Below are positions 41,071 to 47,619 of a stretch of 64,000 bases of DNA, piece by piece; position 1 is the stretch's first letter, and every line of letters starts with the position of its first letter. Where the stretch lies: positions 1 through 64,000 of the forward strand of contig JAGQUM010000031.1 of the NCBI GenBank assembly GCA_020438485.1. The letters are read 5' to 3'. The notes under the pieces were generated by a model. It did not search any database and was not told the DNA's origin. It saw only the letters and a list, made by a program, of their open reading frames with translations. The position numbers and the translations under genes are program-made. The stretch comes from Thermoleophilia bacterium (GTDB taxonomy: Bacteria > Actinomycetota > Thermoleophilia > Miltoncostaeales > Miltoncostaeaceae).

Positions 41071-42518
41071 GCCGCGGCCTCCAGAGCCGGCGGGGCGGTG
41101 TCGAAGCCGATCGCCGCCTCCAGCGCGTGGGCGGCGTCGAACAACCGGTTCTCGCTGAACGCCGGACCCGACAGCTGCAGCCCCACGGGCATGCCGGCGT
41201 CGAGGCCGCACGGGATGGAGACGGACGGCAGCCCCGCCAGGCTGATCGGGATGGTGCACGTGTCCGACAGGTACATGTGCATCGGGTCGTCCGTGCGGGA
41301 CGCCAGCGGAAACGCCACGGACGGCGACGTCGGCGACGCGATCAGGTCGACGCTCTCGAACGCCCGGTCGAAGTCCTCCGCGATGCGGGTGCGCACGCGC
41401 TGCGCCTGCCCGTAGTACGCGTCGTAGTAGCCGCTGGCCAGCGCGAACGTGCCCAGCATGATGCGGCGCTTCACCTCGGCGCCGAAGCCCTCGGCGCGGG
41501 TGCGCTCGTAGTGCTCCGTGAGGTTGTCGGTGTCGGCCGACGAGTGGCCGTACCGGATGCCGTCGAAGCGGGCCAGGTTGGCCGAGCACTCGGCCGGGGC
41601 CAGGATGTAGTACGTGGACAGGCCGTGGCGGGAGTTCGGCAGCTCGACGGGCACGAGCGTCGCACCCAGGTGCTCGGCGCGGTCGAGCGCCTCGCGCACC
41701 GCGGCGCGGACTCCGTCGTCGGTGCCCTCGCCCATCAGCTCCTCCACCACGCCGATGCGGACGCCCGAAAGGTCAGTGGCGGTGGGCACGCAGACGGGCT
41801 CACGCAGGCCCACGCACGTGCTGTCCATGGGGTCGCGGCCCTCGATGTACGACAGCAGCAGCGCCGCGTCGGCGACGGTGCGGGCGAACGGGCCCACCTG
41901 GTCGAGCGACGACGCGAACGCGATGAGGCCGTACCGAGACACGGCGCCGTACGTGGGCTTCATCCCCACGATGCCGCACAGCGCGGCGGGCTGGCGGATG
42001 GAGCCGCCCGTGTCGGATCCCAGGGACCACGGGGCCTGGCGGGCCGCGACGGCCGACGCCGACCCGCCCGAGGACCCCCCGGGCACACGGCCCGTGTCCC
42101 ACGGGTTGAGCGTGGGCCCGTATGCCGAGTTCTCGGTGCTGGAGCCCATGGCGAACTCATCCATGTTCGTCTTGCCCACGACGATCGCGCCGGCCTCCTC
42201 CAGACGGGCCACGCACGTGGCGGTGTAGAGGGGCCGGAACCCCTCCAGCATCCTTGAACCCGACGTGGTGACCAGGTCCCTGGTCACCAGTGCGTCCTTG
42301 ACGGCGATCGGCACGCCGGCCAGGGGCGGCTTGTCGGCCATCGCATCGATCTCTCGAGCCCGTGCCCGGGCGGCGTCGGCGTTGAGCGCGAGGTAGCTGT
42401 TCCAGCGGTCGTCCTCGCAGCGGGCCAGATGGGCGTCGACCAGCTCGGCCGACGTCATCTCGCCCGCCCGGACGGCGGCGATCTGCTGCGTCGCGGTGAG
42501 ATCGGTGGGGGCGCTCAT
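41067..42518 (-). CDS. gatA: Asp-tRNA(Asn)/Glu-tRNA(Gln) amidotransferase subunit A
   Basis: Glutamine amidase subunit of GatCAB, releasing ammonia for transamidation. The 483-residue protein is an amidase-signature enzyme with the Lys-Ser-Ser triad: VAVKD (as PIAVKDALVT), then GGSSGGSASAVAARQAPWSLGSDTGGS. GKTNMDEFAMGSSTENSAYG is the GatA hallmark. Overlaps of 4 bp with gatC and gatB indicate coupled production of the three subunits. Confidence 0.96.
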   Translation of the reverse strand: MSAPTDLTATQQIAAVRAGEMTSAELVDAHLARCEDDRWNSYLALNADAARARAREIDAMADKPPLAGVPIAVKDALVTRDLVTTSGSRMLEGFRPLYTATCVARLEEAGAIVVGKTNMDEFAMGSSTENSAYGPTLNPWDTGRVPGGSSGGSASAVAARQAPWSLGSDTGGSIRQPAALCGIVGMKPTYGAVSRYGLIAFASSLDQVGPFARTVADAALLLSYIEGRDPMDSTCVGLREPVCVPTATDLSGVRIGVVEELMGEGTDDGVRAAVREALDRAEHLGATLVPVELPNSRHGLSTYYILAPAECSANLARFDGIRYGHSSADTDNLTEHYERTRAEGFGAEVKRRIMLGTFALASGYYDAYYGQAQRVRTRIAEDFDRAFESVDLIASPTSPSVAFPLASRTDDPMHMYLSDTCTIPISLAGLPSVSIPCGLDAGMPVGLQLSGPAFSENRLFDAAHALEAAIGFDTAPPALEAAA

Positions 42519-42796
42519 CCCATCCTCCCCACGCTGAACCCGCCGGCGGCCACGCGCGGGGCCTCCCGCAGTGCCTCCTCGGGCGACAGGCTCGGGCGCG
42601 GCTCGTCGGTGCGCAGCACGTTCTCCAGGTGGATCACGTGCGTGGTGGGCGCGACCCCGGCGAGGTCGAGGGACTGGATCTGGTCGACGTGGTCGAGGAT
42701 CCCGGACAGTTCGGCCCGCATGGTCTCGACCTCGTCGTCCGTGAGGGCGAGGCGCGAGAGGCGGGCGACATGGCGTACGACGTCTGCGTCAATCAC
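42515..42796 (-). CDS. gatC: Asp-tRNA(Asn)/Glu-tRNA(Gln) amidotransferase subunit C
   Basis: Small helper subunit that wraps GatA and GatB. 93 residues from GTG 42796, with the family core VVRHVARLSRLALTDDEVE and the C-terminal LRTDEPRPSLSPEEALREAP. An ATG at 42805 lies three codons upstream, but the TACCAT box at 42804-42809 overlaps that codon and sits exactly 7 nt before GTG 42796. The leaderless rule and the family's usual N terminus both favour GTG. Confidence 0.88.
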   Translation of the reverse strand: MIDADVVRHVARLSRLALTDDEVETMRAELSGILDHVDQIQSLDLAGVAPTTHVIHLENVLRTDEPRPSLSPEEALREAPRVAAGGFSVGRMG

Positions 42797-42803
42797 GCGC
42801 GGC

Positions 42804-42809
42804 ATGGTA
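42804..42809 (-). promoter_or_regulatory. -10 box (TACCAT) for the gatCAB operon
   Basis: The box is 7 nt before GTG 42796. Because it contains the alternative ATG, it decides the start of gatC. No SD is present. Confidence 0.5.
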
Positions 42810-42829
42810 CCCCACGCCGCGCGCGGACC

Positions 42830-44188
42830 TCACGCCGGGGGCGTCGTGCCGATCAGGAACCCCACCAACACCAGCACCACCACGCCCAGGGCCAGCTCGA
42901 TGCCCACGGTGGACTGAAGGCGTCGCGCGGCGCCCGCGTCATCCTCGTCCAGGCCCAGGCCGGCGCGCTCCAGTCGGGGGTGCAGCACGAAGCGGTTGTA
43001 GCCCGCGACGCCGCACATCAGGGCGAACACGGCGACCTTGGCGATCAGGATCCACCCGTACGCGGTGTCGACCAGGTTGCCGAACTCCCCCACCTCCGCG
43101 ATGGCCCGGTACACGCCGGTCAGCACGAGCGCGGCGACGCACGCCAGGCCCAGGGCCGAGAACCGCACGACGGACGCCGACACCAGCCGCAGCCGGTCGG
43201 CGTCGCCCAGCCGCAGCCCCGCCGGGACGAGCAGCGACAGGATGCCCGCAAGGCCGCCAAGCCACCCCGCGGACGCCAGCCCGTGGACGGCGTCGAGCAC
43301 CACGTTCAGCCCCGGCTCGTTGCCGGTGCCGGCGTGCCCCGCCCACGCCACGAGGCACAGGGCGACGGCGCCCGGCAGCCCCAGCGCGGCGGCCTGCCAG
43401 ACCGGCGGCAGCGGGTCGTCGCCGTCCTCGCGGCGGCTGATCCACAACCCCAGGGCGAGCGTGACGAGCCCCAGGACGGTGATGGCCAGCGACGCCTGCC
43501 CGATCCGGGTGTGCCGCAGCAGGCCGCCCATGTCGCGCGAGTCGAGCGCCCAGAGCGTGCCCAGCACGGTGGCCAGCAGGCCGACGCCCAGCGCGGACAC
43601 GCACACCCACAGCGCGTCCCACCAGCGGTTGGCGGCCCATTCCAGGATGGGGAACGCGCGCGAGCGGAACCCGTCCGCGTCGCCGGCGGGGCGCCCGGGG
43701 GGCGTCAGGCCGCCCTCGCGCCACGCCCGGCCCGCCACGCCCCAGCGGAACGCGACCAGGCCCACAAGGAACGCCAGCGCCGCCACCGTCAGCCCGCGGC
43801 CCGCGGACGCCGTGGCGCGTGCCGCGGGGCGGTCCGGCGAGGGGGTGCCGGGCCTGGCGCCGATCAGCCCGGAGCTGACGTGGCCGTCGCGGCTGAGTGC
43901 CCGCCACGCGATGAGCTCCGGCGGCTGACCGGCTTCGATGGGCACGCTCACGACCTGGTCGTCGCCGTCGCGCAGCACCGGGCGCCTGCTGATGGTCCGC
44001 CCTTCCGCGTTGACCACCTCGACGGTGACCTGGCGGATCTCGACGGGCGCGTCGAACGACAGCGTGACGCTGCCGGCCCCGCGATCGACGGCCGTGACGC
44101 GGGCCTGAGCCGCCGCCGACGACGCCCACGTCAGCAGGGCGATGAGAGTGAGCAGCGCGACGGCCCAGTGCGCCGCCGGGCGGCTCAG
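42830..44188 (-). CDS. CopC/CopD-fusion copper transport protein (apparent CTG start)
   Basis: A 452-residue exported membrane protein. A signal peptide (AVALLTLIALLTWA then SSAAAQA) precedes a CopC-like beta domain (SVTLSFDAPVEI ... ALSRDGHVSSG). About eight helices follow, with the CopD core (LDAVHGLASAGWLGGLAGI). The CopC copper-binding N-terminal His seems absent, while the SRDGH histidine remains. No ATG, GTG or TTG exists in frame between the signal peptide and distant upstream sequence. The only sensible start is CTG 44188, which overlaps the stop of a 28-residue upstream ORF as CTGA. Likely role: copper uptake or delivery for cuproenzymes. Confidence 0.78.
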   Translation of the reverse strand: MSRPAAHWAVALLTLIALLTWASSAAAQARVTAVDRGAGSVTLSFDAPVEIRQVTVEVVNAEGRTISRRPVLRDGDDQVVSVPIEAGQPPELIAWRALSRDGHVSSGLIGARPGTPSPDRPAARATASAGRGLTVAALAFLVGLVAFRWGVAGRAWREGGLTPPGRPAGDADGFRSRAFPILEWAANRWWDALWVCVSALGVGLLATVLGTLWALDSRDMGGLLRHTRIGQASLAITVLGLVTLALGLWISRREDGDDPLPPVWQAAALGLPGAVALCLVAWAGHAGTGNEPGLNVVLDAVHGLASAGWLGGLAGILSLLVPAGLRLGDADRLRLVSASVVRFSALGLACVAALVLTGVYRAIAEVGEFGNLVDTAYGWILIAKVAVFALMCGVAGYNRFVLHPRLERAGLGLDEDDAGAARRLQSTVGIELALGVVVLVLVGFLIGTTPPA

Positions 44189-44271
44189 CCGAAGAACTGA
44201 TGCAGGCCGATCAACGCACTGAAGGTCACGACGAAACTCACCGCAAGCCGCCGGACCTGTGCCTCGATCAT
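44185..44271 (-). CDS. 28-residue hydrophobic peptide preceding copD
   Basis: A short ORF with a strong SD (GGAGGAG, 9 nt before ATG 44271) and sequence MIEAQVRRLAVSFVVTFS followed by ALIGLHQFFG: a basic start and one membrane-spanning helix. Its stop overlaps the probable CTG start of the CopC/CopD gene. Its codons (AGT, TTG, CTT, GCA) are less GC-rich than those of its neighbours. It may be a true membrane micropeptide, a leader that drives copD translation, or both. Confidence 0.6.
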   Translation of the reverse strand: MIEAQVRRLAVSFVVTFSALIGLHQFFG

Positions 44272-44291
44272 GACCCTGCTCCTCCAGCGCG

Positions 44292-44310
44292 TGGGATTGT
44301 GCTAATCCCA
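44292..44310 (-). promoter_or_regulatory. Operator-like palindrome upstream of the copD unit
   Basis: Perfect TGGGATT-N5-AATCCCA lies 21 bp before the 28-residue ORF. It does not match the CsoR consensus I remember; it may be the site of another metal-responsive or housekeeping regulator. Confidence 0.5.
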
Positions 44311-44361
44311 TCGACCGAACGAGCCGGAAGTTGTTACTCGGGGCGAGCATTCGTGGGGCGG

Positions 44362-44958
44362 TCACCTGACGCTCCGGGACTGCGGGGTCGCGAGCCGCGC
44401 CAGGCGCACCAGATCGGTGTGCTCGGCGGACGCCATGGACATGATGGTGGTGCGGCCGCGGCGGCGCCAACTGACCACCGCACGGTCGCCGTTGACCTTA
44501 CGCGCGATGGACACCCCGCCGCTGCGCACCACCTCGCTGCCGGGGGGCGGCGGGAGCGCCTGGCCGAACAGGATCGTGACGGCCAGGCGCCGCCCGTCGC
44601 CGGAGCCGGTGTAGAACACGGTCAGGGCGACCCTGTCGCCCACCACGTCGCGGCGCCCCGCCACCGGCTGCCACCCTTCCGGGGACAGATCGGGGAACCG
44701 CAGGCCGCGGAACACCGGCGGGTGCCCCCGGGCCACCGTGGTCTCGGCCCCCAGCGCGCCCAGGGCCGACGCGCGGTCGACGATCTCGTCGTTGCGCAGC
44801 CCGGACGTGGCAGCCAGCACGGCGGCCGCAGTCCCGGCCGCGGCGATGAGGATCACCGCCAGCACGCGCCCCAGCCGCTGGCGTGGGCCGTCGGCCGGCG
44901 CGGGAGGCTCCTGCCGGTCGGCCCCCTCGGGCGCGACCTCTGACACGTCGTGCACCAC
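44362..44958 (-). CDS. Single-pass membrane protein of unknown function
   Basis: A 198-residue protein: about 30 hydrophilic residues, one transmembrane helix (VLAVILIAAAGTAAAVLAA), and an extracytoplasmic domain of about 140 residues with FPDLSPEGWQPVAG and LAVTILFGQ segments. No family recognised. GTG 44958 is supported by TACCGT exactly 7 nt upstream. It is divergent from heme A synthase, with which it shares a symmetric -10 element, and lies upstream of the copper genes, suggesting a link to respiratory oxidase assembly (speculative). Confidence 0.7.
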   Translation of the reverse strand: MVHDVSEVAPEGADRQEPPAPADGPRQRLGRVLAVILIAAAGTAAAVLAATSGLRNDEIVDRASALGALGAETTVARGHPPVFRGLRFPDLSPEGWQPVAGRRDVVGDRVALTVFYTGSGDGRRLAVTILFGQALPPPPGSEVVRSGGVSIARKVNGDRAVVSWRRRGRTTIMSMASAEHTDLVRLARLATPQSRSVR

Positions 44959-44965
44959 GGCGGCG

Positions 44966-44975
44966 ACGGTAGCAT
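44966..44975. promoter_or_regulatory. Bidirectional -10 element (AnnnTAnnnT) between two divergent genes
   Basis: ACGGTAGCAT reads as TACCGT leftward (7 nt before GTG 44958) and as TAGCAT rightward (9 nt before ATG 44985), sharing the central TA. One melted region can thus start both leaderless mRNAs. Confidence 0.6.
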
Positions 44976-44984
44976 GGGCACCCC

Positions 44985-45959
44985 ATGTCCACGCTCGACC
45001 AGAGCCGCGCCCGGCGCCGCATCCTGCCCGCCGCGTGGTCCACGCGCACCGGCTTCGCGGTGCTGTCGCTGGTGAACGTCGTGGCGCTGTGGTTCATCAT
45101 CCCCAGCGGGGGCCTCGTGCGGCTCACGAAGTCCGGCTTGGGCTGCCCGGACTGGCCGCTGTGCAACGGCGGCGTGGTACCCGAGGCCACGTACCACAGC
45201 ACGATCGAGTACACCAACCGCCTCGCGTCGGCCGTCGTGATGGGCGTGTCGATCATCACGTGGTTCGCGTCGCGGCGCGTCGAGGGCGGCGGGCAAGCCC
45301 GCCGGATGGCGCTCGTCGCGATGGCGGCGTCGATGGCGCAGATCCCCCTGGGCGGCGTCACCGTGATGCTCGACCTGCACCCCTTGATGGTCGCGTCGCA
45401 CTTCCTGCTGTCGGTCGTCGCGCTGACCGCCGCCGTGCTGTGCGCACTGGCCGCCCGCGACCTCCGCGACGGCCGCAGCCGCCGCGCCGACGCGCGCCGC
45501 GGGCCGCTGGCCTGGGTCGGCATCGTCGTGCTGCTGGCGGTCGTGGTCAGCGGCGTGCTCACCACGGCCGCGGGCCCGCACTCCGGCGACCCCGAGGTCA
45601 TCACCCGGTTCGGACACCTGGAAGAGTCCGCGTGGGTGCACGTGCGCGCCGTCGCGGCGCTCGTCGTGATCATTGCGGCGCTCGCCCTGTGGCTGTGGCG
45701 CGAGCCCAGCCGCGACCCGCTCTCGCGTCCCCTGATGCTGGCGTTCATCCCGGTGTTCCTCGTCCAGATCGCGCTCGGCGAGATCCAGTACCGCCGCGGC
45801 CTGCCGTGGGAGATCATCGCCGTCCACGTGGGTGTCGCCGGCATCGTCTGGGCGCTGGGCCTGGCCGCCGCGTGGACGCTGGCCCGCCCCTCGTCGGCCG
45901 TGGCCCCGGACGCGGGCGACGAGTCGGTGCGCCGCGACGTGGCCAAGGTGGCCCTCTAG
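44985..45959 (+). CDS. ctaA: Heme A synthase (COX15/CtaA)
   Basis: Oxidises heme O to heme A for aa3-type cytochrome oxidase, in the cytoplasmic membrane. 324 residues with about eight helices. The conserved GGLVRLTKSGLGCPDWPLCNGG carries the paired cysteines in the first extracytoplasmic loop. STIEYTNRLASAVV, HPLMVASHFLLS and later histidine-bearing helices (VHVRAVAAL, VHVGVAG) provide heme ligands. It starts leaderless behind the bidirectional element. The nearby copper gene fits oxidase biogenesis. Confidence 0.93.
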   Translation: MSTLDQSRARRRILPAAWSTRTGFAVLSLVNVVALWFIIPSGGLVRLTKSGLGCPDWPLCNGGVVPEATYHSTIEYTNRLASAVVMGVSIITWFASRRVEGGGQARRMALVAMAASMAQIPLGGVTVMLDLHPLMVASHFLLSVVALTAAVLCALAARDLRDGRSRRADARRGPLAWVGIVVLLAVVVSGVLTTAAGPHSGDPEVITRFGHLEESAWVHVRAVAALVVIIAALALWLWREPSRDPLSRPLMLAFIPVFLVQIALGEIQYRRGLPWEIIAVHVGVAGIVWALGLAAAWTLARPSSAVAPDAGDESVRRDVAKVAL

Positions 45960-45969
45960 CCGGACCCGC

Positions 45970-46332
45970 TCAGCGGCGCCGCGGGGCGCGGCTCTGGCAC
46001 GGCACGCAGCGCTCCGCGTCGGGGATGGCCTTCAGCCGCCCCTCGGGGATCGGCGACCCGCAGTCGACGCACACCCCGTACGTGCCGGCCTCGATGGCCT
46101 CGCGGGCACGCGACAGCTGCTCCAGCTGTTCGCGCATGCGCAGCTGGTCGCGCAACTGCTTCTCGCGGTACTCCGAGTCGGACGCCGCCTCCGCCGGGTG
46201 GTGATGTCCGTCGGAGCGTTCGTCGCCGTCGGCGGCCAGGTCGCGGCCCTTCAGGGCCTCGCGGATCTCATCCTCCATGGAGGTGATGCGCACCCGGGCG
46301 GCGTCGAGGACCGCCTGTCGATCGTCAGCCAT
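45970..46332 (-). CDS. TraR/DksA-type zinc-finger protein
   Basis: A 120-residue protein: an acidic coiled-coil N-terminal region (MEDEIREALKGRD ... YREKQLRDQLRMREQLEQLSRAREAIEAG) and a C4 zinc finger CVDCGSPIPEGRLKAIPDAERCVPC. Such proteins act on RNA polymerase through the secondary channel or as general regulators. ATG 46332 is preceded at 6 nt by TATGGT. Convergent with ctaA, 10 bp apart. Confidence 0.9.
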   Translation of the reverse strand: MADDRQAVLDAARVRITSMEDEIREALKGRDLAADGDERSDGHHHPAEAASDSEYREKQLRDQLRMREQLEQLSRAREAIEAGTYGVCVDCGSPIPEGRLKAIPDAERCVPCQSRAPRRR

Positions 46333-46338
46333 CCGCGC

Positions 46339-46344
46339 ACCATA
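46339..46344 (-). promoter_or_regulatory. -10 box (TATGGT) for the DksA-type gene
   Basis: The box is 6 nt before ATG 46332 with no SD, indicating a leaderless mRNA. Confidence 0.45.
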
Positions 46345-46444
46345 GCGGCGGGCGCGAAACGCGCAAACCTCACGGCCGCGCCGCGCCCCCGCAACGGCTC
46401 TGACACGGCGCACCGGGAATCAGGTGCCGTCGGGCTGCGGCCGA

Positions 46445-46450
46445 TACACT
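46445..46450 (+). promoter_or_regulatory. -10 box (TACACT) for the secreted cell-wall protein gene
   Basis: The box is 8 nt before GTG 46459, and no SD is present. Confidence 0.5.
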
Positions 46451-46458
46451 CGAACGAA

Positions 46459-47619
46459 GTGCCCCGTCACCTTTTCGCATACTCCGCCGCCGCGCTGCCC
46501 GTGCTGGCGTCGACGGCCCTCGGTGTGGCGGCGGCCGTCACCGTACCGGCCCCCGCAACCCCGGCGCGGCCCGGCGTCGTCGCCGGCAACGGGAACGCCA
46601 ACGACCAGTTGTCGTGCGTGGCGCCCCAGGACGCGGCAGGCATCGACGCCATCCTCACCCGGGCGGGCAGCCCGCTGGCGGGCGACGGGCGCGACATCGT
46701 CGCGTCGGCCACCGCCGCCGGCATCGACCCCCGCTTCGTGGTGGCGGTCGCCGCCCACGAGACCATGCTGATGACGTACGCGCCGGCGCAGACCATCAAC
46801 AACCCGTTCGGCCTGGGCCCGGGCATGAGGTTCACCCACCACCGGGACGCGGTGCGCTACGCCGCCCGTCTCCTGGGCCGCCACTACGTGGGCGAGGGCC
46901 GTTCCACCATCCCGCTCATCGGCTCCAAGTGGGCGCCGGTGGGCGCCGCCAACGACCCGGCGGGCCTCAACAACCACTGGGCCGGTGGCGTGTCGCGCTA
47001 CTACGCCGCGCTGGGCGGCGATCCCCACCAGCCCGTCACGCTCGACCGCCAGCGCGGCACCTCGTGCGCGCCCGGCGCCACGCCCACCTCGCCCACCCCT
47101 GCCACCCCCCCCGCGGCGCCAGCACCCGGCACGGGCACCCCCCAGATCGTGGTGTGGGACGGCCGCGCCCCGTCCGTCGCGGGCCCGAGCGCGGCCGAGG
47201 GTGGCGACCCCGCCACCGGCGCGCCCGCCACCATCTCCCGGTTCGCGTTCCCGCTGGCGGTCCCCGCCGACGGCCAGGTGCGCTACACGTCCGGGCCGTG
47301 CACGGCCGGCCAGGCGTGCACCACTCCCCTGGAGTCCGCCCCCATGGCCCACGTGGTGGCCGCCACGGACGGCACGCTGACCCCCGCGACCCCGGCCGAG
47401 CAGCAGGCGGGCGTCGCGTTCTGGCTGACCCGTCCGGACGGCGACCGCGTCGGCTACGGCGCCCTGGCGTCGTACGCGCCAGGCATCCAGGGGGGCGCAG
47501 TCGTCAGCACCGGTACTCCCCTGGGACGCTCCACCGGCTCCCTCTCGTTCACGTGGCAGCGCAACGGCGCCGACGTGAACCCGCGGCCGCTGCTGGCCGC
47601 CACGCGCCCCTCCGCCTGA
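46459..47619 (+). CDS. Secreted glucosaminidase-like protein with degenerate M23 domain
   Basis: A 386-residue exported protein: a signal peptide (about residues 1-30), a lysozyme/glucosaminidase-like domain (AAGIDPRFVVAVAAHETMLMTYAPAQTINNPFGLG with catalytic-type Glu, then AARLLGRHYVGEG), and a Pro/Thr-rich linker. A C-terminal region follows the peptidase M23 pattern (YGALASYAPGIQGGAVVSTGTPLG then NGADVNPRPLL). The M23 zinc histidines are missing: YAHL is YGAL and HLHFE is SLSFTW. It probably remodels or binds peptidoglycan; the second domain would be binding-only. Confidence 0.78.
   Translation: MPRHLFAYSAAALPVLASTALGVAAAVTVPAPATPARPGVVAGNGNANDQLSCVAPQDAAGIDAILTRAGSPLAGDGRDIVASATAAGIDPRFVVAVAAHETMLMTYAPAQTINNPFGLGPGMRFTHHRDAVRYAARLLGRHYVGEGRSTIPLIGSKWAPVGAANDPAGLNNHWAGGVSRYYAALGGDPHQPVTLDRQRGTSCAPGATPTSPTPATPPAAPAPGTGTPQIVVWDGRAPSVAGPSAAEGGDPATGAPATISRFAFPLAVPADGQVRYTSGPCTAGQACTTPLESAPMAHVVAATDGTLTPATPAEQQAGVAFWLTRPDGDRVGYGALASYAPGIQGGAVVSTGTPLGRSTGSLSFTWQRNGADVNPRPLLAATRPSA

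Follow-up and report, generated by a model that had tools for sequence, protein, structure and literature searches.

How does a ribosome start on a gene whose reading frame offers, ahead of its signal peptide, neither a recognised start codon at the junction nor a Shine-Dalgarno sequence, and which abuts the stop codon of an open reading frame of only 28 codons? The question is raised by a CopC-CopD fusion gene (copCD) in the window, the 64,000-nucleotide stretch of contig JAGQUM010000031.1 of a Thermoleophilia bacterium that was analysed here, and by the small open reading frame (sORF) directly upstream of it. Four features make up the junction:

44279..44285, minus strand: GGAGGAG, the Shine-Dalgarno of the sORF, 7 nt from its ATG
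44185..44271, minus strand: the sORF, encoding a 28-residue membrane peptide of a conserved family (protein search, profile, frame test)
44185..44188, minus strand: CTGA, the sORF stop together with the first candidate codon of copCD (the sORF ends in GGC TGA)
42830..44188, minus strand: copCD, a CopC-CopD fusion of 452 residues when read from CTG, with a signal-peptide-like start, LSRPAAHWAVALLTLIALLTWASSAAA

Read from the ATG at 44271 over 28 codons, the sORF translates as MIEAQVRRLAVSFVVTFSALIGLHQFFG. The first-pass annotation had described the 28-codon frame, the GGAGGAG 7 nt before its ATG and the TGA overlapping a CTG, and all three are as described: the CTG (44188-44186) and the A that follows it form CTGA, with two bases common to CTG and TGA. 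The frame entered at this CTG is uninterrupted to 42830, and its product matches Pfam CopC (E 3.8e-7, 31.5 bits against a gathering score of 23.3) and Pfam CopD (E 4.1e-25, 88.6 bits against 32.1); against the NCBIfam CopD equivalog it reaches 137 bits, under the cutoff of 195.

Protein search recovers the peptide from G001, a genome of the same genus, where a version with 69% identity directly precedes copCD, and further ORFs of 28-29 residues lie upstream of copCD in G015, G006, G012, G025, G019, G004 and G011. A peptide profile, built from these same nine versions and therefore no independent confirmation, places the family in 9 of 42 Miltoncostaeaceae genomes, always just upstream of copCD (2/2 in genus g1, 2/2 in g6, 3/4 in g12, 1/1 in g4 and 1/1 in g11), and its search shows no further members; in the fourth g12 genome, G022, the CopCD search gave a weak match alone (E 4.4e-21). 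Outside the family, no match at E 0.001 was obtained among 399 genomes of the class, the best (E 0.0037) being partial and containing a stop, nor among 396 genomes of the phylum. The seven stretches read upstream of paralogous copCD genes hold nothing peptide-like, and comparison with Pfam and NCBIfam assigns the peptide to no known protein family.

All nine versions are 28-29 residues long and combine a net positive N-terminus with one hydrophobic segment (15-residue Kyte-Doolittle maximum 2.25-2.86). The membrane peptide proposed from the window proves real and conserved. Invariant positions of the alignment are M1, F13 and one Arg; T16 and H24 are common (by eye). A search for CXXC or CxxxC copper motifs found Cys in none of the nine peptides, and a search for a proline-rich arrest motif found Pro in the C-terminal half of none.

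Over the sORF, the BLOSUM score of the peptide frame exceeds a substitution-matched null in 9/9 genome pairs (p ≤0.019 each), some of which have genomes in common and are not independent. The -1 frame, which is that of copCD, scored above the null in none of nine pairs (minimum p 0.054); frame 1 exceeded it in one, the G000/G001 pair (p 0.018; G000 is the genome of the window). For the G015/G006 pair taken singly, plain identity gave no significant signal (p 0.22), and rough nucleotide counts by codon position show a weak second-position minimum only. Conservation of the sORF frame and not of the -1 frame supports selection on the peptide, and the lack of conservation in the latter argues against translation of copCD through the sORF region. 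Nor is the arrangement due to chance, since other genera have the peptide at this position too and it is the peptide's frame that is conserved. Conservation of the peptide upstream of orthologues, which had been suggested as a check on the first reading, is directly observed, as is that of its frame. On this sequence evidence the peptide constitutes a genuine new small-protein family, hitherto unannotated, and the sORF product is a microprotein, real by its conservation and predicted to cross the membrane once.

Where copCD starts is less plain. In the window, its frame contains no ATG, GTG or TTG between an ATG 124 nt before the sORF stop (44311) and a GTG 170 nt after it, where initiation would cost the protein its signal peptide and part of CopC; no Shine-Dalgarno for copCD is found at the junction. 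From 60 nt upstream to 31 nt downstream of the stop, CTG is the sole codon one mismatch from ATG. All four genomes of g1 (G000, G001) and g6 (G006, G015) keep the stop in one and the same phase relative to copCD, a constancy that involves few independent indels, with identical spacing in three of the four. The overlapping codon itself varies: it is CTG in G000 and CTA in G001, G006 and G015, where the CTGA overlap expected upstream of orthologues gives way to CTAG. Signal peptides read from this codon in the four genomes (LSRPAAHWAVALL, LAPRGGVAAGLVALV, LGRRRRIAAVLAAVL, LALGARIAALLAALL) are of normal length, and in each of them an Arg precedes the hydrophobic core. Three of the four carry RTC-GCS-GCS at a distance of exactly 14 nt downstream of the stop, with ATC in G006 and G015 and GTC in G001.

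Of 30 copCD loci surveyed, G008 was left out, its match beginning inside the mature protein. A canonical start at most 35 codons upstream of the hydrophobic core is present in 24 of the 29 informative loci; it is absent from all four g1/g6 genomes and present in 24 of the 25 others. The startless loci that have the peptide are confined to these four genomes in two genera, apparently all metagenome-assembled. The fifth startless locus, in G018 (genus g9; L101 2229-2290), has no ATG, GTG or TTG before the signal peptide, no sORF, and an in-frame ATC 7 nt after the TGA of an unrelated upstream ORF, so that the absence of a canonical start is not peculiar to loci with this peptide. For the start codons of copCD paralogues, the rows used were those of G018 and G000, the rows with long open frames being out of frame. 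Ordinary starts in orthologues, named by the first-pass annotation as evidence against its reading, do occur: ATG, GTG or TTG opens copCD in g12, g4 and g11, all of which have the peptide, and in g2, g5, g7 and g10, but the closest relatives have none.

Outside g1 and g6, copCD is begun in several ways. TAGCGT or TACCGT, which we take to be a leaderless-type -10 box, stands 6-9 nt before the copCD ATG or GTG in seven loci (G004, G005, G010, G011, G012, G019 and G025; by eye), and where a separate copCD accompanies the peptide (G012, G019, G025, G004 and G011) it keeps a GTG behind this box. In the g2 genomes G020 and G023 the stop of a DUF4245-like ORF overlaps copCD as ATGA or GTGA (by eye), and in most g9 loci the TGA of another ORF overlaps the copCD ATG. 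Together with g1/g6, these overlaps indicate that a link between copCD and an upstream stop is common in the family; only in g1 and g6 is the stop that of the peptide, and there copCD lacks a canonical start. The species tree groups g6 with g2 weakly (83.6/81) and splits g1, g6 and g2 from g12, g4 and g11 at 100/100, and the CopCD tree has several weak forks.

Upstream of the sORF, three elements bear on how it might be transcribed:

44332..44337, minus strand: GTAACA, proposed -35 element, at the same spacing in 4/4 g1/g6 genomes (by eye)
44307..44312, minus strand: GATGGG (GATAGG in g6), proposed -10 element, containing an in-frame ATG at 44311-44309
44292..44310, minus strand: inverted repeat TGGGATT-AGCAC-AATCCCA beside the proposed -10 (by eye)

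GTAACA-N19-GATRGG precedes the sORF in all four g1 and g6 genomes (by eye); a pattern search matches three of them, G000 deviating from the pattern at its final base. Across 46 genomes, GTAACA-N19-GATRGGG occurs once each in G001, G006 and G015, at the copCD locus, and once in G003, and a role as a regulon signature was rejected on account of this single occurrence per genome in four of 46. The inverted repeat suggests a conserved hairpin or operator, and repeats of different sequence occupy the same place in G001, G006 and G015 (GGGG...CCCC; by eye). Counterparts of the sORF Shine-Dalgarno are AAGGAGC in G001, CAGGAGG in G015 and CAGGAGT in G006. No known RNA family was detected over 42000-46500, and neither 44155-44304 nor 44130-44230 is predicted to fold more strongly as RNA than shuffled sequences do (z -0.66 and -0.67); with no unusual fold at the junction, coupling of the RNA-unfolding type is not favoured in the window.

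The explanation that we favour, and consider reasonably probable, is that the microprotein sORF and copCD are expressed from one promoter and that in g1 and g6 a non-canonical restart after the sORF stop makes CopC-CopD. A single transcript would carry both genes; copCD in g1/g6 would lack both a separate ribosome entry and an AUG, GUG or UUG start; ribosomes would load on the strong sORF Shine-Dalgarno, stop at TGA or TAG, and reinitiate at the stop or within about 20 nt of it on a non-canonical codon (CTG in the window; CTA, ATC or GTC in relatives), yielding a secreted CopC-CopD. We infer the shared transcript and the reinitiation, as well as the membrane topology, from sequence; the absence of canonical starts and the geometry of the junction are seen directly. 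With the peptide conserved, a canonical start missing and the upstream frame showing no selection, the ribosomes that translate copCD are most likely those that have terminated on the peptide gene, and the sORF and copCD are probably a pair coupled through a non-canonical restart. The translational coupling proposed at first is borne out to the extent that the two genes abut without a canonical copCD start in 2/2 g1 and 2/2 g6 genomes; its more specific form, a rescue of CTG, is not.

CTG remains the best near-cognate candidate for the window, unproven as a start, and the codon is not conserved across the family. In its favour is its position as the sole one-mismatch codon near the stop; against it stand CTA in three relatives, which as a very poor start also weighs against coupled restart as a whole, and a competing ATC in two. 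Restart a little further on, at ATC (G006, G015), GTC (G001) or a similar codon, with the CTG of the window incidental, is possible, if on the unlikely side: the RTC placed 14 nt after the stop fits it, ATC has a third-base mismatch only and is offered independently by G018, but G000 has CAC TGG at that place and its closest GTC differs from ATG at two positions, and a start there would leave the n-region Arg outside. According to an in vitro study, initiation demands good pairing at the first two positions of the codon (PMC10158994), a rule that speaks against CUG and CUA and for AUC; calicivirus reinitiation is reported to tolerate even non-cognate codons (PMC5972666). A 64-codon initiation study (Hecht et al.) is cited in PMC13232202.

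Three further explanations compete. A start of copCD at the in-frame ATG (G000, G001) or GTG (G015, G006) that lies 34-40 nt upstream of the sORF, and 121-124 nt before the stop, in 4/4 genomes (ATG 44311 in the window), would use an open frame and give a 41-residue N-terminal extension overlapping the sORF, but this codon overlaps or immediately follows the conserved GATRGG box of the putative promoter, has no Shine-Dalgarno, would lengthen the protein ahead of its signal peptide by much Arg-rich sequence, and opens a frame without protein-level conservation over the sORF; for its promoter position and the lack of frame conservation it was rejected as improbable. A -1 frameshift, within the sORF or at its end, that fuses the peptide to copCD would fit the position of copCD in the -1 frame in 4/4 genomes and would need no start codon. 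It is more improbable still and was rejected for want of a slippery site, neither an XXXYYYZ heptamer nor a long homopolymer being found in the four genomes; fusion would moreover put Arg-rich segments (RRRR in G006) behind the first membrane helix, on the outer side, and the peptide exists unfused in five other genomes. The peptide might instead be the main product, with copCD expressed from a weak internal promoter by another start and the adjacency functionless. A leaderless-type box could have left a trace where three genomes have their TAG stop (TAGGGC, TAGCGC, TAGCCC), but these remnants lack the last T and lie 11 nt from the nearest RTC, G000 is without any such box, and leaderless initiation is expected to need AUG or GUG, which leaves this explanation quite unlikely.

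In the coupled pair as we favour it, the peptide gene would serve at least as a ribosome-delivery leader. Genomes in which copCD possesses a start of its own retain the peptide as well, so that it must have a separate function, which might speculatively be exerted at the membrane beside CopCD; it may also be the CopD partner that the first-pass annotation suggested. It is doubtful, though conceivable, that ribosome delivery has freed the copCD start codon from selection, so that CUG, CUA, AUC or GUC would serve wherever the stop leaves the ribosome, while the peptide also acts at the membrane beside CopCD.

Several known systems invite comparison. The lysis gene of phages MS2 and fr starts at a weak UUG, and the calicivirus motif TURBS acts by binding rRNA. 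Among termination-reinitiation pairs, the NTGA (-4 nt) overlap is described as the commonest spacing (PMC6728339, PMC12548453); the sORF and copCD resemble such pairs in being co-directional, in having stop and start bases in common (CTGA at 44188-44185) and in a weak or absent downstream Shine-Dalgarno, but differ in that no recognised start codon, ATG, GTG or TTG, stands at the overlap and in an upstream gene of only 28 codons. MS2/fr coat-lysis coupling (PMC12548453) likewise has terminating ribosomes find a nearby poor start, but it is viral and involves a longer back-scan. Calicivirus termination-reinitiation (PMC5972666) is similar in its tolerance of near- or non-cognate starts and differs in its eukaryotic ribosomes and TURBS.

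Among copper genes, translation of CutF is needed for the gene downstream (PMC9973294), and CruR is a copper upstream ORF, DUF2946/CutF-like (PMC9426467). Like them, the sORF encodes a small exported or membrane product, here with a predicted TM segment, just upstream of a copper gene. It is much shorter and has neither a Cys copper motif nor a proline-rich arrest end, and its junction is an overlap, whereas in CutF/CruR, which belong to a different phylum, a stem-loop covers the Shine-Dalgarno. By position the sORF resembles CutF/CruR, and by the absence of the Cys and Pro motifs it is judged not to be a member. Arrest peptides of the Sec/YidC type require a spacer of >30 residues between the TM segment and the arrest site (PMC10987492), more than the whole 28-29 residues of this peptide. 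In literature of partial coverage on bacterial CTG/CUG overlap starts, copper small membrane proteins and Thermoleophilia leaderless genes, no paper on the peptide or the locus was found.

Gene callers miss both members of the pair: a gene of 28 residues is dropped, and one that lacks ATG, GTG and TTG is bound to be assigned a wrong start. If the proposed restart is correct, the four genomes, possibly with G018, would form a natural set for how strictly bacteria need a start codon when the ribosome is delivered from upstream, and an actinobacterial, motif-free peptide would be added to the few small membrane products known from positions in front of copper genes. If the start codon has in addition been freed from selection, this would be a natural bacterial case of start-codon-independent reinitiation.

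The pair stands in a conserved gene order of divergent ctaA (COX15/CtaA), a DUF4245-like ORF, the sORF, copCD and gatC/gatA/gatB-like genes, the latter presumably gatC, gatA and gatB. In the window, the flanking members are:

44362..44958, minus strand: co-directional upstream ORF of 198 residues, with weak DUF4245 similarity below cutoff and conserved synteny
42515..42805, minus strand: gatC-like ORF downstream in the syntenic block

At 44970-44987, TAGCAT stands about 9 bases upstream of the ctaA ATG, a leaderless-type box like that of copCD in other genera. At L020 and L018 (G016, G005), copCD apparently adjoins the divergent ctaA, with neither a DUF4245-like ORF nor an sORF between them. 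At the N-terminus of CopC (44090-44110), the predicted signal peptide ends at Gln (AAAQA) in G000 and G001, and the corresponding sequence is AHA in G006, G015 and G012. The N-terminal His, which we take to be a copper ligand of CopC, has apparently been lost in genus g1 (G000, G001), with the DGH motif retained.
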